Source: Thelephora terrestris
Lineage: Eukaryota; Basidiomycota; Agaricomycetes; Thelephorales; Thelephoraceae
Reading direction: 5' to 3'
DNA length: 64,000 nt
Assembly (NCBI GenBank): GCA_015956445.1
Contig: WIUZ02000007.1
Span: 434,001 to 498,000, forward strand
In this document: one piece after another, positions 26,967 through 64,000 of the stretch
Position numbering within the stretch: the first letter of the stretch is position 1
Layout: every line of letters begins with the position of its first letter
Notes under the pieces: model-generated
The model's input: only the letters and a program-made list of their open reading frames with translations
What the model was told of the DNA's origin: nothing
Database searches by the model: none
Made by a program: the position numbers and the translations under genes

Positions 26967-29900
26967 ATGGCTGGGCTTATGCTCGAGACTCCATCTCGCC
27001 TGCTGAGGCGCATAGATGCCTTCGACGATGACGATATGCCATCGCTACCTCCCGTACCTGACTTCGAAGACGATACCGGCATCCTCTCTTCGTCCCAGAT
27101 CTCCTCGCACTCGGCCATTTCCCGGGAACCCCCTCACATAAGCAGAAGCTCAGATGTCCTTCACGCAAGCGACGAATCTTTACCCTACCAATCGACACCC
27201 ACTTTCTCTCATTTACAAAGAACAGTTTCCACGGTCCGGCCACCTCCAAGCGCCAGGAGCTCTGCTCGTTTCGCCCAGTCATTAGCTTCGTCACGTTCCC
27301 GGTCAACGCGATCTGCGGCTTCGCAGTCGAGGAACGGGAGCGGAAAGCATTTGAGGGACGAGACCTTTGATGTCAGCGAGATCAAGCCTGTCCCACCAGA
27401 TGCCAGTATCGATTGTGACGATGACTATGCTGGTGCGATGAGCCTGGAACTCGCGAACAGCAAAGCTAGCATCCCTGTGAATTATCAACCTCAGGCCCCC
27501 TCACTAGACGAAGAAGAGCTCGACCTGACTGAGGCGATGGAAGACATTGGTCGGAGCCGCTCGCCGTTCCAGCCTGAGGGTCGCAGCGCGGACGCTCCTT
27601 CGAGGAAGGGAGGGAAGTACTATGATTATGAGGTCAGCCTGAAATCAGAGGCTAAGGTGAGTCCGCATTCGACGATTTCTGATGAGGCGCTGGACTCAGG
27701 CTGCTCACGTAGACACCTGCTCCGAAGACGCCTCGTGTTGGTCTCGACAACTCCACGTATCGAAGGCCGCTCGATAGGACTCGCACCCCCTCATTAACCC
27801 GCACAAGTACCTCACTGGCATCCTCCCTCTCGTCAGACCATGAGGACCTACCGCGAGCTAGCACATCAAATTATATCGAATGTCCCAGGACCGCCTCACC
27901 CATGTCAGCCGACTCTCTGCCACTCCCCCGTAGCTTCTTGGCTTCTCCCAACCCCACCCCTCGACCAGCGTCTGCTCCCCCGGTTTCATGCCCGTCCGAC
28001 CGATCCATACATTCCGATGATTTACACTCCAGCGATGCTTTGCCTCCTTCGGACGTCAGCGACTCTCACAGTAGTAACTACCGGCATGAAGTCAGCACTA
28101 TACAGGAGGTCCAAGAAGAAGATCTCGTTTCCGAGGAAGGAATGCAATCCTTCACTTCTGAATCGCGACGGACTGTATCAGAGGCTGACCCCCATGAACC
28201 TACCCATGGCTCTGAAGCGACGCCCAGGCAGATATATGGAGTCGATGGCATAGGAACTGTCCCAGAGTCATCGCCCGCTCCTTCTGCCACCTTCACTCCA
28301 ACCCCGGCTTTCCAGCCTCGTCCGAGAGCCAGGTTCCAAGTTCCTACCCCTACCTTCACCCCGCAACAGCCTGCGGCGACGAGATCCTCAGACCATGAGG
28401 TCACTGGGGGCGAGGACACAATCGACAACCACATGCCTCCCCGAGAAGACCTTGACCCGGTCACTCCTTACTCACAGAAACGGTCGTTCCTTATGGATGT
28501 CATCAACTCTACTGCTCGTCCCCGCATGAAGTTCCCCACCCCCCACCCCAACCGTGGCAAGGTTCCGGAGACGTCAATGCATCAAGACTCCCAATCCTCT
28601 TCTTCCCCATCCACAGCAGCCACTCCTGCTCCCGCCCCACCCGTTGCCCGACTCACAAATGTCTTCGCTGGGGCAACCCCTCGGCCCAGAGCCGCTTCAA
28701 ATCCGAGGCCTCGGTTATCTCACCCTTTATCTCAGGGCTGGACGGCCACCGATGCAGAGTCCGACGGCGGGCACGAATTTCAGTCTGGTTCGCCCGAATA
28801 CGATCCCCTCCAGGACCGGGCTTCCTTCATTTCCACCGCCTCTTCCCACGACTTGACGGTTCATGCTAGGGCAAATACCTCTTTCGACCCAGCGATGGGC
28901 CTTACCGCTCAAGGTGCAGGCGTCGGAAGGTTCAACGCGAAGAAACTGAACTCGTACTTGTATGGTCTCAACAAGCGACTGGAGGATGAGAACAAAGCCC
29001 TGGTAGACCGGATCACTGAACTTGAGGCCAAGGGAGCGAGTACCTCACCTGCAACTTCATCAAACTCTTCCATTCCCGGAAGGTTCGTGAATGCCGGTCG
29101 TGGACGAGCGCGGGTGAGCGTAAGTCCCGGAGGGTTGGGAAATGTCGAAGAGGAGGAGGAGGATGGAGACTATTTATCGGAGAAGGCAGAGTTGGAAGCA
29201 GTTATCCAAGGCCTGCAAGATGAATTGGAGAAGTCCAACAAGGAGAAGGAAGAGTACGAGGCCAAGTTCAATGCAGAACGCGCTTTGGATAAACAGCGGT
29301 GGCGCGACAGGATGGCTGAGGTTGAGAAAGGCGTCGAAAATATAGTCCGGGACCTCGAGCAGAAACTCGACAAAGCCGAAGCTGATGCAAAGGAAACCGC
29401 TCGACGCGTCGAGGCCGTTGAAGCCGAGAGAGATGTCGCGCTGGAGAAGGTCGAGATTGCGGAGCGAGCATTGGCGGCGGAGGCTGACATAGGGAAGGAG
29501 ATGAACGTTGTCAACGAGGAACTTGGTCGACTATCTGGCGAACTCAAGAAGACTAATATTCGCGCGAGAAATTTGGAGGATGACCTTGGAGAACGCAATA
29601 TCAAAGTGGCTCAGCTCGAGGCCGAACTCAAGGACGAGAAGGACATCGTTGAAGGCTTGGACCAAGAGCTGGCCACCCGCCTGGACGAGATTGAGAACCT
29701 TCGCAAGCAGGTCGAGGAGCGATCCAAGAAGCTGAAGGCCAACGCTGACGAACTTCGCGATACCAAGGGTTATGTGGCTGAGTTGGAAGCCGAAGCTGAG
29801 GTTGCTGCAGAGAGGATTCAGGCTGTCGAGGCTGAGTTTGAGTCCATGCAAGCTCGCTTACGAGAGACCGTCAACGAAGGAATCCATGCTCAGGAGCGGG

Positions 29901-52379: not shown

Positions 52380-52986
52380 TTTGACTTTTGGTGGGGTGCC
52401 GGGGATGGGAGATACGCAGAAAATGGCACTATTCCCTGACAGCCCAAAATGAAGTCACGTGAGCCTGTGAAGTTTTTGGCCGCCAGGAGCCTTTGTAGGT
52501 CACAGAGGAAGTCGGAAGGCCGTTTCAAAAATGCAGTCTAAGTGAAGAGGAGATCCGTCGTATCTGCTGGCTGAAAAAATTAGGGGACTGGCAATGCGTA
52601 TGTACTTGAAAATTGAGGGGGGGGGGGGGAAACCAGGGGCGAGGTGGAAGATATTCTAGACAATCGCAGGAAAGTTACAAGGTTGCTATTGAACACTCCT
52701 TTGTCAAAAATTCCCTCCCGATGATCCTCCACTTATCGAAAAACTGCTTTGTTTGGGACTGGTATCTCAGGTTTTTTGCCCATTGTCTCGTAGCATATGG
52801 TTGGGTTCTGCCCTCTTGGATTTTCTTGAGATGCCCCTGGAACCATCTTTCACACAACGGCGTCCAGCACCCAAAATCAAGACCGGATCCTTCCCAGGTG
52901 TTAACCTTGGGCCACCAAGACAAGTCCTTCGTCTGATTCCCCTTCCCTGCTCCAGGGTGAGCTCGACGAAGTTGGTTGAAGTGAAA
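52380..52986. other. Intergenic region, nothing supportable
   Basis: A run of about 13 G lies near 52617-52629. Short frames on both strands have no motifs. It should hold the 5' flank of the gene at 51081-52379 and the 3' flank of the next one. Confidence 0.45.
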
Positions 52987-55773
52987 TCACCAACCGGTTA
53001 GGATCTCGTAACCTCCGACAAGGTAAAACCACTCGCCCTCGGTAAGCTCGTGACGCCAGTACTCCTTCTTCTCCACCTTCAAAGAGGACCCTGAGTCGGG
53101 ATAGGTGTCGAGTATGATGTCGAAGGACCCTTCTATCCCGAGCACCTCTATAGCAATTCGCCAGGCAATCCCCCCCCGAGAAAAGGCCGCTGCTGCAACG
53201 TAAGGACGTTCATGGAAGAGGGTCCGGACCCTCGACATGTAGGCCCCGAAATCCTCTGGGTTGAGCTGCCAATTTTCTTCCCGGACAGGAAATGTGAGGA
53301 TGTTGAAGTTTGGGGGAACAGAAGGTCCGGCAGCTGGGTACAAGAGGGTGAACTTTGAACCGTTGAGCAAAAGGTAGTTCAAGTGGCTTTCGAGCTTCGC
53401 CGCAGTCCCTGCTCTCCATACCTCAAGAACGGACAAGGGATGGTGGAACACCAACTGCCTCGAGTCGCCCGCATCGATGAAAGTGAAAACTTCGCCCTGG
53501 GTGGAAAGCTCGACTGAACTTGAGACAATCATCGTGTTTCTGATTCCATTCTTCCAGGTCTGTTGAAACCTCTCATCGTGGGGAGAATTTTTGCTGAGGT
53601 CAGAATGTCCATCGGGGAGCTGGCCAGAGAGGATGCAGGTGATGAAATTATTGAGGTGTTCTGCCTTTTCTTCGGACGGCTCCAAACCGAGGATTCGGTG
53701 TGATTGTGCCTTATCGAATGGAAAGATGACAGGGTGGGTCGAGGTGGGATCGCAAGTTAGATAACCGTATCGGCGGTATAAGAACTCGAGCGGCGAAGGG
53801 TTTTGGTCAGGGAGGGTGGCGGGCGGGCCGGGTTCTGCGTACCAGCGCCCCAGACACTGGGGGCAGGGGCACCTGGAATCAGTGATTGCATCTTGACTAT
53901 ATGGTGAGTTCATGTGCACTTTTCAATGATTGTAATTGCTGATTCCAGGTTGATTACATTTCAAATGTTACCTTGACATGTAACTCAACTGTTGCCACCA
54001 ACTCCATTTGAAATTTCCTCAAGATGTTCCCAAGCAATGTTTCCTGAATGTGCCCAGTGGGTACATTGTGAAAACATCTCATGTTTTTGAGCGCATTTAG
54101 ATTACATCTTGGATGATTGAAGAACATGCTGATTACATTGCAGTATCATTCTTGCCAACAGGTCAAAAGCATCCCAGAAACATTTGTTGAGAACATTTCA
54201 AATGGAATTGGTGGACATTGGTTGGATTACATGTCAGGGTAACATTTGAAATCTAATCAACCTGGAATTGGTGATTACAATCATTGAAAAGTGCACATGA
54301 ACTCACCATGTAATCAAGATGTAATCACCAATTCCAGGTGCCCTTGCCCCCAGTGAGAATAAGGGGGTCGTTGTTGTTTACTCCTTCGTCCAGGTCATCC
54401 GGTGGTCCAGTCTCAACTGCGGGTGCCCACTTGAAAGGACAGTAGTCCCAAAAGTTACGTCGTGGATCGAAGACCATCGCCTCTTCGTACCAAAGTTCCC
54501 AGCTCTCTGCAACTACGGACCGGTCCTGTAGAATTCTAAAAAACCCACCAGAATCGCAGGCCTCCCAGACGTAGACCCTTGCTCCAGACTTTCCGGGAGC
54601 ATGAAACTTTAGGGCGTTCCGTTCCCGAGACAGCCAGGCCTTCTTCTCGTCATCGGACGCAGTCTCAAAATGATTCTTATCAGCTTCCTCTCGTTCTCGG
54701 AAGAAGGATTCCCAACTCCTGTACCATCGACCGCCAGTTGGAATGCGAGTGGGGGGGGTCGGCGATTCGGGACGGACAGGGGTGTTGAGGTTGACATCGT
54801 TGGTCGACAGCTCTGAGGGTGGGTTGTTGCAAGGAACCGGCAAAGAATCTGTTGGGTTGGCTGGAAGGGAGGGAGCGGCGGCAGGTTTGGCGATCAGGGC
54901 TTCGTTGTGCTCAGCTGCCGCTTTGCGTTGGGCGTCGTAAACCTGCTGCCCAGTCGGCAACCAACTGTTTGCCACAACAAAGCCCCCGTACAATCTTTCG
55001 TAGGAATTGTGTTCGGGGAATAAAACCCAGATTGGAACGCCGAAGTTCAACGCATTTGAAAGCCATCTGACCGAGGTCGTACGGGGACGGACCCTCACGC
55101 CGACGAAATTCCTTTCCTTCCATTGCCTATAAACCACATCCCAGACACTGTCTACCCAAACTGGCCCACATCGGGCCAAAAGGGCCTTCCACCAAAGCTG
55201 ATCGACCAAGTTTTCGCCCCATTTGTACTGCATAGAGACCAAGTACACAAGGTACGCAAGCCTGTGGACAAATCCCTTTCTGCTCTTCTCCGAGGATATA
55301 CTTGCTCCGCGCTGGGTTTTATGGCCTCGAGTGAACCCGAAGCGAACGGGCGATTCAGGTTCTACGTGGCCGAGCTCCACTAGCATTCCCCCGCTGACTA
55401 CTTCGATGGAAGCGGTTAGCTTGTCGTCCAGAGATGCCCAGAGTATACGAGTGTCCTCGTCCAAGAACCACCGCCCGTCTTTTTGAACGTAGTCCCGGGT
55501 TTGGCGCTTGAGGGGCTCCAGAAGGTGACTTTGGAACGGACGTTCCTTTGGGAGGTATGCGTGGTAGTCCATGCCCTCCTTGATCCAACTAAGTCTAGCC
55601 GGCAAGTTGGGGCTTACTCCAGGGGCCTCGGCAACAGAGGCAGGCAGATAGCTTTCGAACGATGTCACAACATCTTTCATGTTTGGGCAAAAGACCCGGA
55701 GGGATGACTTTTCTCCTGAGGGGAAGAGGGTCAATTGATTAGGCATGACAAGAATCTGCCATTCAAGCGTCAT
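52987..55773 (-). CDS. Unrecognised large gene carrying a MITE that can be spliced out
   Basis: Two long minus-strand frames flank a 501-bp MITE. The 5' part (55773-54329) has a globular domain (YKWGENLVDQLWWKALLARC, NFVGVRVRPRTTSVRWLSN, GVPIWVLFPEHNSYERLYG) and then a Pro-rich linker with WYRSWESFFREREE. The 3' part (53872-52987) continues with RWYAEPGPPATLPDQNPSP, FLYRRYGYLTCDP, AAAAFSRGGIAWRIAIEVL and the end YLVGGYEILTGW. If the MITE is removed as an intron (54328-53873) the frame is kept and the product is 776 aa, with 16 codons drawn from MITE ends and target duplication. Removing the element and one duplication also leaves one continuous frame, so the gene was whole when the MITE landed. 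No family is recognised. Its neighbours suggest a mobile-element passenger or a fast-evolving accessory gene. Confidence 0.55.
53855..54355. mobile_element. 501-bp MITE with 129-bp terminal inverted repeats, CACTA-like ends
   Basis: Both ends start CACTGGGGGCARGGGCACC, and the inverted repeats cover 53855-53983 and 54227-54355. I count about 12 mismatches in 129, mostly transitions. The flanks are AGA on both sides (53852-53854 and 54356-54358), a 3-bp target duplication. CACTG ends with a 3-bp duplication are typical of the CACTA (EnSpm/CMC) superfamily. There is no coding capacity. Inside, the word gattaca and its variants recur many times in both orientations, like subterminal repeats. Each terminal repeat contains cacctggaattggtgattac, which supplies a GT donor at one end and, inverted, an AG acceptor at the other. 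Confidence 0.88.
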
Positions 55774-56104
55774 CAGCCACGTACAACCCCTGCCGATGCA
55801 AGGATCAAAGACGAACCTTTATTTGGGGTTTGAAATTCTGTGGGGCTGGTTTCGGTCAAAGTTTTTCGCATCCTACGAATCAGAGGCACGGGGAGGGCGG
55901 AAAGGAGATGTCGGGCCAAGCAGGAAGCAGCGAGCTTAAATCGGGAGGAGGGCACGGTCGTCACGTGAACCGTAGGCAAATTGCTTCAGAGTCCGAGTCC
56001 GTAAATATTACTCATTACATAACGATACGAGGGGAGGTCGGTTTTGTGAATACAGAAAATGCCATTCTAGAAGACGACATAAAACGAGCTCGTGAGGAGT
56101 TCAG
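55774..56104. other. 5' flank of the MITE-bearing gene
   Basis: It should contain that gene's promoter (minus strand). Nothing else is visible before the first repeat unit starts. Confidence 0.4.
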
Positions 56105-59100
56105 GGAGGACTGGTTGTCAGGAACATGGTATTTTTAAACTTTTTTATAACACGCTCTTTCTTCGAAACTCTTCTTACCAATTCTTATGTTTGAATGCTT
56201 CACATTCCTTATCCTTCACACCAATCATTCGAAACACACACACGCGCGTACTATTCCCAGCGAATCCACAACGAGCTATACAAGTGCTATCTCGGTCCCA
56301 TCAAAAGTCGACTCTATCTACGGCAGGCCTAAAGGTCACCAAACGTCCATCCCGGAGATCGTAGTGCTGGCCCCTCCTCGCTAGGACCTCCCCGAACATG
56401 GCGTCACCATCTTCGGCACTCAGCTGAACGACTAGTTCAAGCCGATAGGAAGAGAGACCTTCGAGCGGACCGATCAGCCTCCCAGATGTCACTGAACTCT
56501 GGAACACCTGGTCCCACATCGCCATCACCGGGTGACTGCTCGACAGCACTATCGACGTAGTCGGCGAGCGACCCTCCGTCTCCCTCGTCACACCCCTGGG
56601 TGGGATCCTCTCTTGCGAGTCGAAGCTGGTGGCGAAGCTGGATCTCCGACTCGACCTGTCGGTAGGGACGGTTGATCCGATAGTGGAACTCTCGTCCCCT
56701 ATCTCGACCAGACTGGTCACCATCCGACTCAACTGGACGCGGGTATGGGTAAGCCGAAGGAGCCATGCGATGAGCAGGACGGCGTCGAGAGCGCTTGCAA
56801 CGTTGCCCCTTAGTCACCGGACGTACCTCGGCGACCCTCGGAGCATCTTCGGCTCGGTCAACCTTCATGACCTCATCCTCGATCTTCACCAACTGATGGA
56901 TCGGCTGCAAGACGCAGCGCCCACAGTTCTCCTTGTCGGAAGCGGCCAAGGTGGAAGCAGGACCTGGAGTCGGAACGGGAACCGAGTTCTCGATCGGAGG
57001 CGTCGCATAGGACGACGGGTTAGGAGAAGGGAGTACCACCTCGTCGGCGTACTCCAACTCGAACGGAACATCGGCGGTCCCCTGACCAACCAATTTGGGA
57101 CCCTCCTTGCAGTTACAGGTCTTGTCCTGCAAGGACTCGACCTGCGCTGTCAACACGGCCACCACGTTCTCGAGTTCTTCGGTCTAGGAAATGTCAGCTT
57201 CCATCATCTTAAGCAATGATGAAAGCGGCATTACCTTTTCATCCCTCTTGGCCAACGCCCCCTTGATGTTGTTGTCCCGAACCTTCAACCCAGCGATCAA
57301 CTCTTGATGGTTGGCGACCATTGCCTCCAACGCCTCGTTCGTTCCCTGTTGAAAGGCGGCCAGAGTCTCCTTCATCTGAAGACCCTCTGCCGACAGACGA
57401 AGGACGTCTGCCTTCGCCTCCTTCACCTCGCGCTCCAAACGTTCAACCTAGGCAGTTTGATTAGTCGAGAGTCATACTCGAATATTCAAACGAAGGACCT
57501 ACTTTACTCTCCCCCTCCCGAACGAGCGACCACAACAACGACGTGGCGGCAGTGGCATGACGGACGGCCCGAGGAACGGTTGCTCCGTGTTCCAATAGGT
57601 CCTGATCGTAGATCCCCCTCTGCAGGGTGTACCAGAGCTCCTTCTTGATCGGATGCTCCAACTCTCCGAACCTACCCCTCATTCGGAAGGCTACCTTCTC
57701 GGCGATGATTGTACGAACCCAGAGCTCATCGTCCCAGGTCAACCCCATCAAATGAGGCATCGTCTCCCTGAGACGTTCGGCGTCCACCTCCGTGACGACC
57801 TCCAAGATCTAGAAGCCGTTAGCTGGACATCAACGCCCAAAAGAACGTAACCTCTACCTAGAGGAAGGCGTTAGTGCGAACACACGAAGCTCTAAGTCTC
57901 CCCCATACCTGGTCATCCGTGGCATAGGGAGTCCCAGCCGCACAGGCATAGGTCTTGCGAGCGGCAGCACGACGGTCGATACGGGAGATGGTGGAGATAC
58001 CATTGGCGACTTTGTAGGTATGGTTGTTGGGGAAGGACATGTTTTGGTAAGATGATGGGGAAGTTGCTGGTGTTGCTGATCAAGGATGGCTCCAAGAAGA
58101 CGTCCTTCTTATAGCCTAGATCGGTGATCCTTCACGTGACCTACCTCGACGAACCTCATTGGTCCGGGTCACATCAACTTCCGCCCCTGTACCATCATCG
58201 TTGGCTTACTACATCAAGCTGACACCTCGGCCCGCGGGACGGCCTTGGAAGAACTTCGTTCCGGAACGCCTAGAACACGCGCGCACTAAAAATAGGTCTC
58301 AAGACCCTGATGACTCCTTTATGACATCACGAACCCCTTTACGACCCCTCATGACTTTACGATTACGAACAACCCTGGACCCTGATCACACACGTGGACA
58401 GTCACATCACAGTCTCCTAACCGGAGGAAGGACTCGCCGCTATTCGGAAGCATCGCCTTAGGATCCTTCTGGTTAGCCCAGCGCATGTGGAGTAGCCGTT
58501 AGCGTGAAACACCGGCGAATCTGTAATCCCTCATGTCCCATGAGTCTAGGCCTGACCTCCTCATGTTCGGACGTACGTTGAGGTTGCCACTAGTCCGTGA
58601 TGCTGTTACCGCCTACAGACAACAAGGGATGTTGCATGGCTCTACTCCCGAATCCGCTGGCATAGCTATGTAAAGGGAGATTGCTACCTGGCCCTTGGGT
58701 GTGATCCCCAGGTACGAACTTTCATGACCCCATGCCCCTTTTTCTTTTAGGACTAGTGTTATCTTTACCCCTATGTTTCATGCGGACATTCCTTATCTTT
58801 TATGCAATCCTTCACACGCTAGTAAGGCCCTTTGTCCTTTATTCTCCCACGCGTCACCTTGTTCGCTTCCCTTACTTAGCGTTCTCACACTCCTTATCTC
58901 CCTTTGTTCTGGACTTGATAAGGGTATATTAGGGTATTGACGTCATGGCCACTCCTTTAGTATAAGTAGCAACTGTGGCTGTATCGTAGTACCTTAGTTT
59001 TGTTACCTCAGGAAATCCTCTGCCCTTCTCAGCCCAGTTGCAGTTAAGGCCAAGTCAGAGTTTCTTGTTTGATCCAAGACATCCCCATCTGCTCTCCCTC

Positions 59101-59340
59101 CCGCTCTGCGCGTCAACTGCGCCTCGTAACTATAGACTCCCAGCAGTCATATTAGAACACCTCGAGCGTCCAGTCGATCAACTGGTGGAGTCATCAATCC
59201 TGCTGTAGGGATCAACCCTTGCTTGTTAAACCGAACGAAGTGCGGTTTAGGTTGGGTTTCTCTTCAGGATTTCGACCTGACTTGTAGTGACCTCGGACAA
59301 CCTACCGGAAGAATAGAGACGTGATCGTTCTCTCACAAGC
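56105..59340. repeat. Duplicated unit, copy A (about 3.2 kb)
   Basis: It begins tgtcaggaacatggtattt, as does copy B at 60780, and the two match closely for more than 3.2 kb apart from a divergent block near 58650-58700. The left flanks differ just before this point, so this is a real boundary; the right boundary is unknown because copy B runs off the window. The left half carries a minus-strand gene. The right half (58041-59340) is non-coding and shows a plus-strand tataa-type box at about 58960-58970 followed by a pyrimidine-rich leader, reminiscent of a long terminal repeat. No polymerase, protease or integrase is seen inside. The family is unassigned, and an LTR-type or other non-autonomous element is possible. 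Confidence 0.7.
56437..58040 (-). CDS. Gene inside duplicated unit, copy A; coiled-coil protein of unknown function
   Basis: Read from MSFPNNHTYKVANGIST at 58040, four blocks separated by three short GT-AG, phase-0 introns give about 465 aa, and the copy looks whole. Block 2 is globular (MGLTWDDELWVRTIIAEKV, HPIKKELWYTLQRGIYDQD). Block 3 is a coiled coil (ERLEREVKEAKADVLRLSAE). Block 4 begins ELENVVAVLTAQVESLQDK, has two Cys pairs (CNCKEG, CGRC), an Arg-rich segment (KRSRRRPAHR) and an acidic C-terminus (DEGDGGSLADYVD). A structural, Gag-like role fits the coiled-coil plus basic pattern but is a guess; no family signature is recognised. The same gene is present in copy B. Confidence 0.6.
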
Positions 59341-59604
59341 TAGTTAGACTAGTGAGTACTCTGCGGAGTCGGCTCAGTGCACTGGTAGTTGTTGGGGTAG
59401 AGTGGCCCTGACACTGGTAGGCTGCCTAAGTGACGATCGGGAAACAACCGAGAAATACCATTCAACGGACACGAATGGACAATACTTGCTGACAATAAAG
59501 CCATGTCGTCGGCTAGGTAGACCCCAAAGTGGAAAAACCACCCAAGAGGACCTAGAGCAGTTGGCAAGGATGAGAGAAACCCTCTGACAAGATATCGCAT
59601 TGTT

Positions 59605-59911
59605 GACAAGCTGAAAGCCCCCAGAACCCACAGCAGCCAGAGCCGCGCAAACCGACAGGCGGTGAACACGGACAGAAGCAAACCTCCGACGAGATAGCAA
59701 CGTCGTTGACGAGGCGAAACCCCCAGAACCCACAACAGCTAGAGCCGCGCAAACCGAGAGGCGGTGAACACGGACAGAAGCAAACCTCCGACGAGATAGC
59801 AACGTCGTTGACGAGGTGAAAGCCCCCAGAACCCACAGTAGCCGGAGCCGCGTAAACCGACAGGCGGTGAACGCAGACAGAAGCAAACCTCCGACGCAAC
59901 AGCGTCTCTTT
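59605..59911. repeat. 102-bp tandem repeat, three copies
   Basis: Units begin at about 59605, 59708 and 59810, with shared text such as gacagaagcaaacctccgac and cccccagaacccaca. Because 102 is a multiple of three, several frames stay open across all copies, which explains the overlapping open frames here. Confidence 0.85.
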
Positions 59912-60024: not shown

Positions 60025-60779
60025 AATGGGGAGCGGATGACGCACAAAGCGTTCAAGAAAAGGGGGCACAGACGACGGGCAGGAACCCTCTTGAGGAGGG
60101 GTAGAAGTTGTTGCCATCCGACAAACCAGAGGCAACACCAAAGGGGAGGAGAAGGCGGGATATGGATTTGAAGAGGGAATTGCCGAGTTTCGATTGGCGA
60201 TCGGTGCCACGAGGCTCTGAGCCATGCCAGAGGTTAAACACTGAGAGGGGAGAAGCCTCAGGAGGGGCGGGACTCGGGTGGGACTTCAAGCTTCACCGGT
60301 TGCCCGTCAACGTAAGAAATAGCCGAGCCGAAGTCCCGTTGATCGGTGGCCATGGTGCCATTCTTGATTTAGGTAATCGGAAGCGCCGGTTTGCCGATTC
60401 ACATGATGTTGTCGTTTTAGCCACTTGTCGGCGGAATGAGTACTTGTCCATGGTCCGGCAGATACAGAGTAGCAAGCTGGCTGGGAGAGAAAATGTAAGA
60501 ACTGCCATTTTAAGCACCTTATCCCTCGAGGAGGAGGACGGAATGGACTGTGTTGAAGAGGGAGACGGAGCTGGGGAGAAAATAGCCGAGCGAAGTTTGA
60601 TAACCGGCGCTGCATGGTTCTCGGCGCTCCACAGATCAGGAAGCCAACCAGAGGGAAGCGGGTGCCACGCTGGGATGTTTGCGGTCCCCTGAGAGAGGCT
60701 GCACCAGTGAATCTGTCCAAGACAGTAAAGGATGTTGCTGTCCAATAGATCAGAGGCAAGTTTTTGGAGGAGGGGAGGG

Positions 60780-63700
60780 GTGTCAGGAACATGGTATTTT
60801 TAAAACTTTTTATAACACGCTCTTTCTTCGAACTCTTCTTAACTATTCTTATGTTTTGAATGCTTCACACTCCTTATCCTTCACACCATTCATTCAAAAA
60901 CACACACGCGCGTACTATTCCCAGCGAAGCCACAACGAGCTATACAAGTGCTATCCAATCCCATCAAAAGTCGACTCTATCTACGGCAGGCCTCATGGTC
61001 ATCACCCTTCCATCCCGGGGATCGTAGTGCTGGCCCCTCCTCGCAAGGACCTCCCCGAACATGGCGTCACCATCTTCGGCGCTCAGCTGAACGACTAGTT
61101 CAAGCCGATAGGAAGAGATACCTTCGAGCGGACCGGTCAGCCTCCCAGATGTCACTGAACTCTGGAACACTTGGTCCCACATCGCCATCACCGGGTGACT
61201 GCTCGACAGCACTATCGACGTAGTCGGCAAGTGACCCTCCGTCTCCCTCGTCGGACCCCTGGGCGGAATCCTGTATTGCGAGTCGATGCTGGTGGCGAAG
61301 CTGGATCTCCGACTCGACCTGTCGGTAGGGACGGTTGACCCGATAGCGGAACTCTCGTCCCCCACCTCGACCAGACTGGTCACCATCCGACTCGACTGGA
61401 CGAGGATAGGGATTAGCCGATGGAGCCATGCGATGAGCAGGACGGCGTCGAGAGCGTTTGCATCGTTGCCCCTTAGTCACCGGACGTACCTCGGCGACCC
61501 TCGGAGCATCTTCGGCTCGGTCCACTTCCATGACCTCATCCTCGATCTTCACCAACTGATGGATCGGCTGCAAGACGCAGCGCCCACAGTTCTCCTTGTC
61601 GGAAGCGGCCAGAGTGGAAGCCGGAGCCGGAGTCGGAACGGGAACCGCGTTCTCAATCGGAGGCGTTGCATAGGACGACGGGTTAGGAGAAGGGAGTACC
61701 ACCTCGTCGGCGTACTCCAGTTCGAACGGAACATCGGCGGTCCCCTGACCAACCAATTTGGGACCCTCCTTGCAGTTACAGGTTTTGTCCTGCAAGGACT
61801 CGACCTGCGCTGTCAACACAGCCACCACGTTCTCGAGTTCTTCGGTCTAGGAAATGTCAGCTTCCATCATTCTAAGCAAATGATGAAAGCGGCATTACCT
61901 TTTCATCCCTCCTGGCCAACGCCCCCTTGATGTTATTGTCCCTAACCTTCAACCCGGCGATCAACTCCTGATGGTTGGCGACCATTGCCTCCAACGCCTC
62001 GTTCGTTCCCTGTTGGAAGGCAGCCAAGGTCTCCTTCAATTGAAGACCCTCCGCCGACAGACGAAGAACGTCTGCCTTCGCCTCCTTCACCTCACGCTCC
62101 AAACGTTCAACCTAGGCAGTTTGATTAGTCGAGAGTCATACTCGAATATTCAAACGGAGAACCTACCTTGCTCTCCCCCTCCCGAACGAGCGACCACAAC
62201 AACGAAGTGGAAGCGGTAGCGTGGCGAACGGCCCGAGGAACGGTCGCTCCGTGCTCCAATAGGTCCTGATCGTAGATTCCCCTTTGCAGGGTGTACCAGA
62301 GCTCCTTCTTGATCGGATGCTCCAACTCTCCGAACCTACCCCTCATCCGGAAGGCCACCTTCTCGGCGATTATCGTACGGACCCAGAGCTCATCGTCCCA
62401 GGTCAACCCCGTCAAATGTGGGATCGTCTCCCTGAGACGTTCGGCGTCCACTTCTGTGATGACCTCCAAGATCTAGAAGCCGTTAGCTGGACATCCACGC
62501 CCAAAAGAACGTTCCTCTACCTAGAGGAAGGCGTTAGTGCTAGCGAACAAAAGCTCTAGGTCTCCCCCATACCTGGTCATCCGTGGTATAGGGAGTCCCA
62601 GCCGCACAGGCATAGGTCTTGCGGGCAGCGGCACGACGGTCAATGCGAGAGATGGTGGAGATGCCGTTGGCGACTTTGTAGGTATGGTTGTTGGGGAAGG
62701 ACATGTTTTGGTAAGATGATGGGGAAGTTGCTGGTGTTGCTGATCAAGGATGGCTCCAAGAAGACGTCCTTCTTATAGCCTAGATCGGTGATCCTTCACG
62801 TGACCTACCTCGACGAACCTCATTGGTCCGGGTCACATCAACTTCCGCCCCTGTACCATCATCGTTGGCTTACTGTATCAAGCTGACACCTCGGCCCGCG
62901 GGACGGCCTTGGAAGAACTTCGTTCCGGAACGACTAGAACGCGCGCGCACTAAAAATAGGTCTCAAGACCCTGATGACCCCTTTATGACATCACGAACCC
63001 CTTTTACGACCCCCCATGACTTTACGATTACGATCAACCCTGGACCCTGATCACACACGTGGACAGTCACATCACAGTCTCCTAACCGGAGGAAGGACTC
63101 GCCGCTATTCGGAAGCATCGCCTTAGGATCCTTCTGGTTAGCTCAGCGCATGTGGAGTAGCCGTTAGCGTGAAACGCCGGCGAATCTGTAATCCCTCATG
63201 TCCCATGAGTCTAGGCCCGACCTCCTCATGTTCGGACGTACGTTGAGGTTACCACTAGTCCGTGATGCTGTTACCGCCTACAGACAACAAGGGATGCTGT
63301 ATGGTCTCTATCTTTGGCCTCTCCAAAGGAAGCATCCAAGAAGATTCTCACCTAGCCCTTGGGTGTGATCCCCAGGTACGAACTTTCATGACCCCATGCC
63401 CCTATTTCTTTTAGGACTAGTGTTATCTTTACCCCTATGTTTCATGCAGACATTCCTTATCTTTTATGCAATCCTTCACACGCTAGTAAGGCCCTTTGTC
63501 CTTTATCTTCCCACGCGTCATATTTGTTCGCTTCCCTTACTTAGCGTTCACACACTCCTTATCTCCCTTTGTTCGGACTTGATAAGGGTATATTAGGGTA
63601 TTGACGTCATGGCCACTCCTTTAGTATAAGTAGCAACTGTGGCTGTATCGTAGTACCTTAGTTTTGTTACCTCAGGAAATCCTCTGCCCTTCTCAGCCCA

Positions 63701-64000
63701 GTTGCAGTTAAGGCCAAGTCAGAGTTTCTTGTTTGATCCAAGACATCCCCCATCTGCTCTCCCTCCCGCTCTGCGCGTCAACTGCGCCTCGTAACTATAG
63801 ACTCTCCGTAGTCATATTAGAACACCTCGAGCGTCCAGTCGATCAACTGGTGGAGTCATCAATCCTGTTGTAGGGATCAACCCTTGTTTGTTAAACCGAA
63901 CGAAGTACGGTTTAGGTTGGGTTTCTCTTTAGGATTTCGACCTGACTTGCAGTGACCTCGGACAACCTACCGGAAGAATAGAGACGTGATCGTTCTCTCA
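60780..64000. repeat. Duplicated unit, copy B (runs off the right edge)
   Basis: It starts with the same tgtcaggaacatgg boundary as copy A and follows it to the last base. Differences are scattered substitutions, small indels and one replaced block at about 63295-63355. High similarity, including introns and non-coding parts, points to recent duplication or transposition. Confidence 0.7.
61100..62704 (-). CDS. Gene inside duplicated unit, copy B
   Basis: It has the same four-block, three-intron layout as copy A, starting MSFPNNHTYKVANGIST at 62704 and ending FLSA at 61100, and also looks whole. Amino-acid differences from copy A are few (for example EVITEVDAERLRETIPHLT against EVVTEVDAERLRETMPHLM). 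Conservation of the frame and of all splice sites in both copies suggests the protein is, or was until recently, under selection. Confidence 0.6.

Follow-up and report, generated by a model that had tools for sequence, protein, structure and literature searches.

A probable CACTA-type miniature transposon with splice-like terminal repeats interrupts an exon of a predicted gene

The element and its host gene

Within the 64-kb stretch of DNA analysed here (the window), a gene is predicted on the minus strand between a start codon at 55871 and a stop codon at 52677-52675 (52675-55871). In a model built by eye the gene comprises four exons and two native introns, of 101 nt (55816-55716, GTTCGT...CCTCAG) and 48 nt (52994-52947, GTTGGT...GAGCAG). 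A 501-bp element with the ends CACTG...CAGTG, beginning with CACTGGGGGCA and ending with TGCCCCCAGTG, splits exon 2 at 53855-54355. The element is flanked by an exact target site duplication, AGA, at 53852-53854 and 54356-54358, seen at this one insertion only and expected by chance in 1 of 64 cases for a given triplet; a 501-bp element with an AGA duplication in a minus-strand open frame is what the original prediction had placed at this position. With the element and one AGA removed, the gene reads through 848 codons to a single terminal stop, giving a protein of 847 amino acids, and the empty site of the insertion would read ...DPLILGRWYAEP....

The host exons are open on both sides of the element, an observation that splicing would explain and that a recent insertion would explain equally well. 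The two long pieces of the host open reading frame gave no Pfam match at E 0.01 (the last exon lay outside this search), and the window contains no paralogue of exon 2 or of the exon 3 and exon 4 pieces, apart from one weak match to exon 3 (E 0.18). The host protein pieces had no match in a viral-contig collection, where three stretches fit a pattern, none of them encoding a relative, and Rfam had no match in 53000-55900. The 48-nt intron (52947-52994) would remove an in-frame TGA at 52989-52987; if this intron were not real, the host gene would be interrupted twice and could be a pseudogene.

The arms of the element (left, 53855-53989, plus strand; right, 54221-54355, minus strand) form a terminal inverted repeat of 135 nt that is 90% complementary, so that the long inverted repeats originally proposed are real, while their length, put at 129 bp, is revised. 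The symmetry extends nearly from end to end, with 74% identity over 527 columns when the full element is aligned with its own reverse complement. This inverted repeat is the strongest of five pairs detected in the whole window, three of which lie within the element, and the RNA of the element is predicted to fold as a single long hairpin (-288.7 kcal/mol, z = -22.8), with none of 100 shuffles as stable. Because it is the strongest in the window and because of the z score of its fold, the inverted repeat is no chance event.

Also evident is a repeated subterminal motif. Counted on both strands, the heptamer GATTACA is present seven times in the element, whereas shuffles lead to an expectation of 0.098 and none of 1000 reached seven; the remainder of the window has five. 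A 20-nt motif, ACCTGGAATyrGTGATTrCA (ACCTGGAATTGGTGATTACA and variants), is present near the element ends in four copies of alternating orientation: an outer copy (53871-53890, plus) and an inner inverted copy (53931-53950, minus) in the left arm, and an inner inverted copy (54260-54279, plus) and an outer copy (54320-54339, minus) in the right arm, the last of which contains the proposed splice donor discussed below. GTGATT is kept in the outer copies of both arms, and its GT is lost in one of the two inner copies, a difference that counts against reading the element as an ordinary MITE. Both copies of the right arm (54260-54339) read AATTGG and both copies of the left arm (53871-53950) read AATCAG; since each two-base state is common to the two copies of an arm, a small stem within the arm stays paired while the arms differ, and this agreement is a sign of conversion or templated change inside the arm.

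Classification and copy number

The subterminal repeats of CACTA elements are binding sites for the transposase, and the inverted repeats of these elements are short. A 2025 survey of fungal DNA transposons describes CAC...GTG termini and 3-bp duplications as consistent with EnSpm (PMC12730594), and the present element shares with the fungal EnSpm/CACTA (CMC) group both of these features as well as terminal inverted repeats with subterminal repeated motifs in both orientations. It differs in being non-coding, in its length of 501 bp and in inverted repeats that are much longer. By its ends and the length of its duplication the element would be assigned to a non-autonomous EnSpm/CACTA type, a name that rests on the anatomy of a single copy; the CACTA assignment of the original prediction is thus supported by the ends and the 3-bp duplication, with the element lying inside an exon and the neighbouring genes having short introns. 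PIF/Harbinger elements, for which a 3-bp duplication is possible, were dropped as candidates since their termini differ from CACTG..CAGTG. PlavakaB elements of Agaricomycotina, described with CA...TG ends and a 2- or 3-bp duplication (PMC12730594), were likewise dropped, their ends being CATCA..TGATG.

The element contains no transposase and has practically no coding capacity, and would consequently need a transposase supplied from elsewhere. No member of the EnSpm/CACTA transposase family was found among the 30 open reading frames of the window that were run against Pfam. BLAST of the element against the 64-kb window returned only the element itself and short matches, one of them an ordinary 18-bp match in a long open frame at 28402-28419, so that the element is single-copy in the window. 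Exact element patterns had no match in collections of viral contigs and genome contigs, and blastn had none against plasmids; as these are not fungal genome sets, absence from them says little. With neither a transposase nor a second copy found in these searches, membership of a mobile family rests on the anatomy of the one copy. Approximately 3 kb from the element, an open reading frame at 50348-51004 matches the Pfam rva_4 integrase core (E 7e-21) and is likely a mobile-element remnant.

Candidate splice signals in the terminal repeats

On the minus strand the right arm reads TGGAATTG/GTGATTAC, with a potential donor at 54328, and the left arm reads GATTCCAG/GTGCCCC, with the last potential intron base at 53873. 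Excision of 54328-53873 (456 nt, GTGATT...TTCCAG) would, as originally calculated, keep the frame, add 16 codons and join the two long frames without a stop. The remnant of such an excision consists of 27 and 18 nt of the element plus one 3-bp duplication, 48 nt in all, and its 45 element-derived nucleotides are free of stops in all three frames and in both orientations (the codons at the junction vary with the target), so that it would be frame-neutral wherever it was inserted. The outer 27 and 18 nt have a G+C content of 63% and 78%, respectively, compared with 37% for the 456-nt proposed intron, a suggestive step. The frame-neutral, stop-free remnant and the G+C step are the best points in favour of an introner, that is, of an element that carries its own splice sites into every gene it enters.

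As had been pointed out, either orientation of the element offers a donor from one arm and an acceptor from the opposite one; however, whenever a terminal repeat contains both GT and CT, one arm must supply a donor and the opposite arm an AG, and the arrangement is by itself no evidence of selection for splicing. The chance expectation was estimated from dinucleotide-preserving shuffles placed at the same site (2000 of each kind, with the whole arm shuffled or with the outer 30 nt shuffled apart), in which the arms are mirrored perfectly while the real arms are 90% complementary. A frame-keeping GT-AG pair within the element arose in 56% of the whole-arm shuffles and in 81% of those with the outer 30 nt apart, and one near both ends in 31% (at most 30 nt, whole-arm) and 59% (at most 35 nt, outer 30 nt apart). 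A frame-neutral remnant open in three frames was obtained in 19% and 57%, respectively, and when the 45-nt remnant was shuffled with its dinucleotides preserved, 76% of 5000 shuffles had all three frames open. Against these shuffles the frame-keeping splice pair in the element appears to be nothing special.

The strength of the sites was assessed against 22 introns of nearby genes, predicted by a simple codon-usage script that is blind to splice motifs beyond GT-AG; the donor model was built from the 14 of them not longer than 75 nt (44-71 nt), some of which may be wrong, the eight longer ones having been dropped beforehand. The proposed donor GTGATT scores -0.24, a value equalled or beaten by 26% of all GTs in the window, and is outscored by 10 of the 14 short predicted introns in a leave-one-out comparison (12 of 14 in-sample) and by 17 of 22 when the model is built from all predicted introns. 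It lacks the G at +5 found in 12 of the 14 short predicted introns (14 of all 22). In contrast, a GTGAGT at 54306-54301, 22 nt inside the proposed donor, scores 2.82 and ranks in the top 2% of window GTs. Since this stronger donor lies behind an in-frame TGA at 54327-54325, its use would give a truncated protein.

Together with AATTCCAG at 54262, the GTGAGT delimits a 45-nt intron-like stretch in the right arm (54262-54306, minus strand, GTGAGT...TTCCAG) that does not restore the frame. When the 522 GT-AG pairs were ranked ad hoc by a summed score favouring introns of up to 120 nt, this stretch tied for first place and the proposed pair came 99th. The GTGAGT block of the arm is perfectly conserved, and 54262-54306 resembles a complete 45-nt intron within the terminal repeat. 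The region from 8 to 45 nt ahead of the proposed acceptor contains no CTRAY branch motif; the sole candidate there is a YTNAY at 32 nt, with TATAG and CAAG between this motif and the acceptor. In the predicted fold both proposed sites, as well as GTGAGT, have a pairing probability near 1, an arrangement that argues only mildly against splicing, because the hairpin might also bring distant sites together.

Interpretation of the insertion

The element is probably an ordinary non-autonomous CACTA-type MITE that interrupts a host exon, its cryptic splice sites possibly giving a partial rescue of the kind described for maize dSpm. A transposase from elsewhere would presumably have recognised the element ends and the repeated subterminal motifs, and the element would then have inserted at an AGA within one exon of the 847-aa gene. 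Transcribed with the gene, it would bring a TGA one codon beyond the proposed donor, and a transcript retaining it is predicted from the sequence to end translation at amino acid 481. GT and CAG are present in the terminal repeats by composition; if the stretch between 54328 and 53873 were excised, the frame would be restored at the cost of 16 extra residues. Splicing of the element is nevertheless expected to be weak or nil, so that the allele would be mostly disrupted and perhaps rescued in part by cryptic splicing. To call the element intron-making is not yet justified, because the splice sequences have little strength and similar ones often arise by chance. As it stands, the element offers a lesson in how readily a transposon with terminal repeats resembles an intron, given that mirrored shuffles often do as well.

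A single insertion might also have been converted incidentally from exon to intron, being spliced well enough, by its own cryptic sites or by donors in the host exon, to keep the host gene working, and its family would then not be an introner family; we regard this as unlikely. Such a conversion would have material to draw on at the locus, where 18 GT-AG pairs keep the frame, two of them with both sites within the element and several with donors in the exon, for example GTAAAC at 54381 with the CCCCAG ending at 53857. However, the pairs that score highest in the ad hoc ranking leave the frame broken, and the best frame-keeping pair, with its donor in the host exon at 54381, is only 32nd of the 522.

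According to the title of Menssen 1990, splice sites in the termini of maize En/Spm give rise to a novel intron. CACTA ends are described as sometimes mimicking splice sites (PMC4219821), and together with that title this gives the mechanism proposed here a direct plant precedent among CACTA elements, whether as an incidental conversion or in an introner family. The maize dSpm resembles the present element in that its CACTA ends contain splice sites able to form a novel intron (Menssen et al. 1990; PMC4219821), and differs in that its splicing was observed in RNA, while that of the present element is only predicted.

The original prediction had suggested that the element may belong to a CACTA-type introner family. 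Such a MITE family would have spread as new introns, each genic copy using the same terminal-repeat donor and acceptor in either orientation and leaving a stop-free 16-codon scar. Support for such a family comes from the donor and acceptor available in both orientations, the remnant that is frame-neutral and open in all six frames, the exon-like G+C of the element ends around an AT-rich interior, and the host frame that is intact on either side. Introners with inverted repeats and target duplications, both also present here, have furthermore been described in protists and algae, and one family in Aureococcus, similar in architecture, brings its own donor and acceptor and lengthens the transcript by 12 bp (PMC9860276). 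Those introners, however, are families of similar introns, whereas the present element is one copy; its donor is weak, with a stronger competitor leading to a stop and a 45-nt intron-like pair within the arm; the acceptor is preceded by a YTNAY instead of CTRAY; the 456 nt to be excised compare with 44-71 nt in the 14 short predicted introns (cut-off 75 nt); the predicted RNA fold pairs both sites and GTGAGT too; and shuffles often equal the element in keeping the frame. That the element is a splicing-competent introner is consequently not supported, and a family of this kind has, in our judgement, a low probability.

Doubtful as well is the more specific proposition of a basidiomycete CACTA-type MITE family acting as an introner by DNA transposition, with G+C-rich, exon-like ends of 27 and 18 nt and a frame-neutral 16-codon scar in either orientation. 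A basidiomycete-like host is plausible in view of the short introns and the rva_4 integrase core. Of three papers mentioning both introners and Basidiomycota, none reports a basidiomycete introner in its title or at the start of its abstract. A DNA-transposon introner with inverted repeats and a duplication in a basidiomycete would, if true, be new among fungi. If splicing of the family were established, this would be a case of fungal introners that move by ordinary DNA transposition, and it would link the introners of today to the intron formed by maize dSpm.

Very improbable, finally, is a symmetrical introner-like or stwintron-like intron of the ascomycete type, spread by an RNA route (reverse splicing), with the inverted repeats as intron structure rather than transposon ends. 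The introner-like elements of Dothideomycetes and Hypoxylaceae and the symmetrical stwintrons are, like the present element, fungal, symmetrical and intron-like, and the long internal symmetry recalls the Hypoxylaceae introns with their inverted repeats of 45-55 nt; however, the latter are described as inserting seamlessly with no flanking duplication (PMC8469720) and come from a different phylum if the host of the present element is a basidiomycete. The AGA duplication is at odds with seamless insertion, for which reason an RNA-spread introner-like element was dropped as a candidate, and the proposed splice sites are set 27 and 18 nt inward from the element ends.

Further repeated sequence lies elsewhere in the window, where a 3.2-kb direct repeat (56113-59335 and 60778-64000, 94.3% identity) is present in two copies 1.4 kb apart, the second of which reaches the window end, and between them a tandem array at 59602-59896 contains 2.9 copies of a 102-bp unit.
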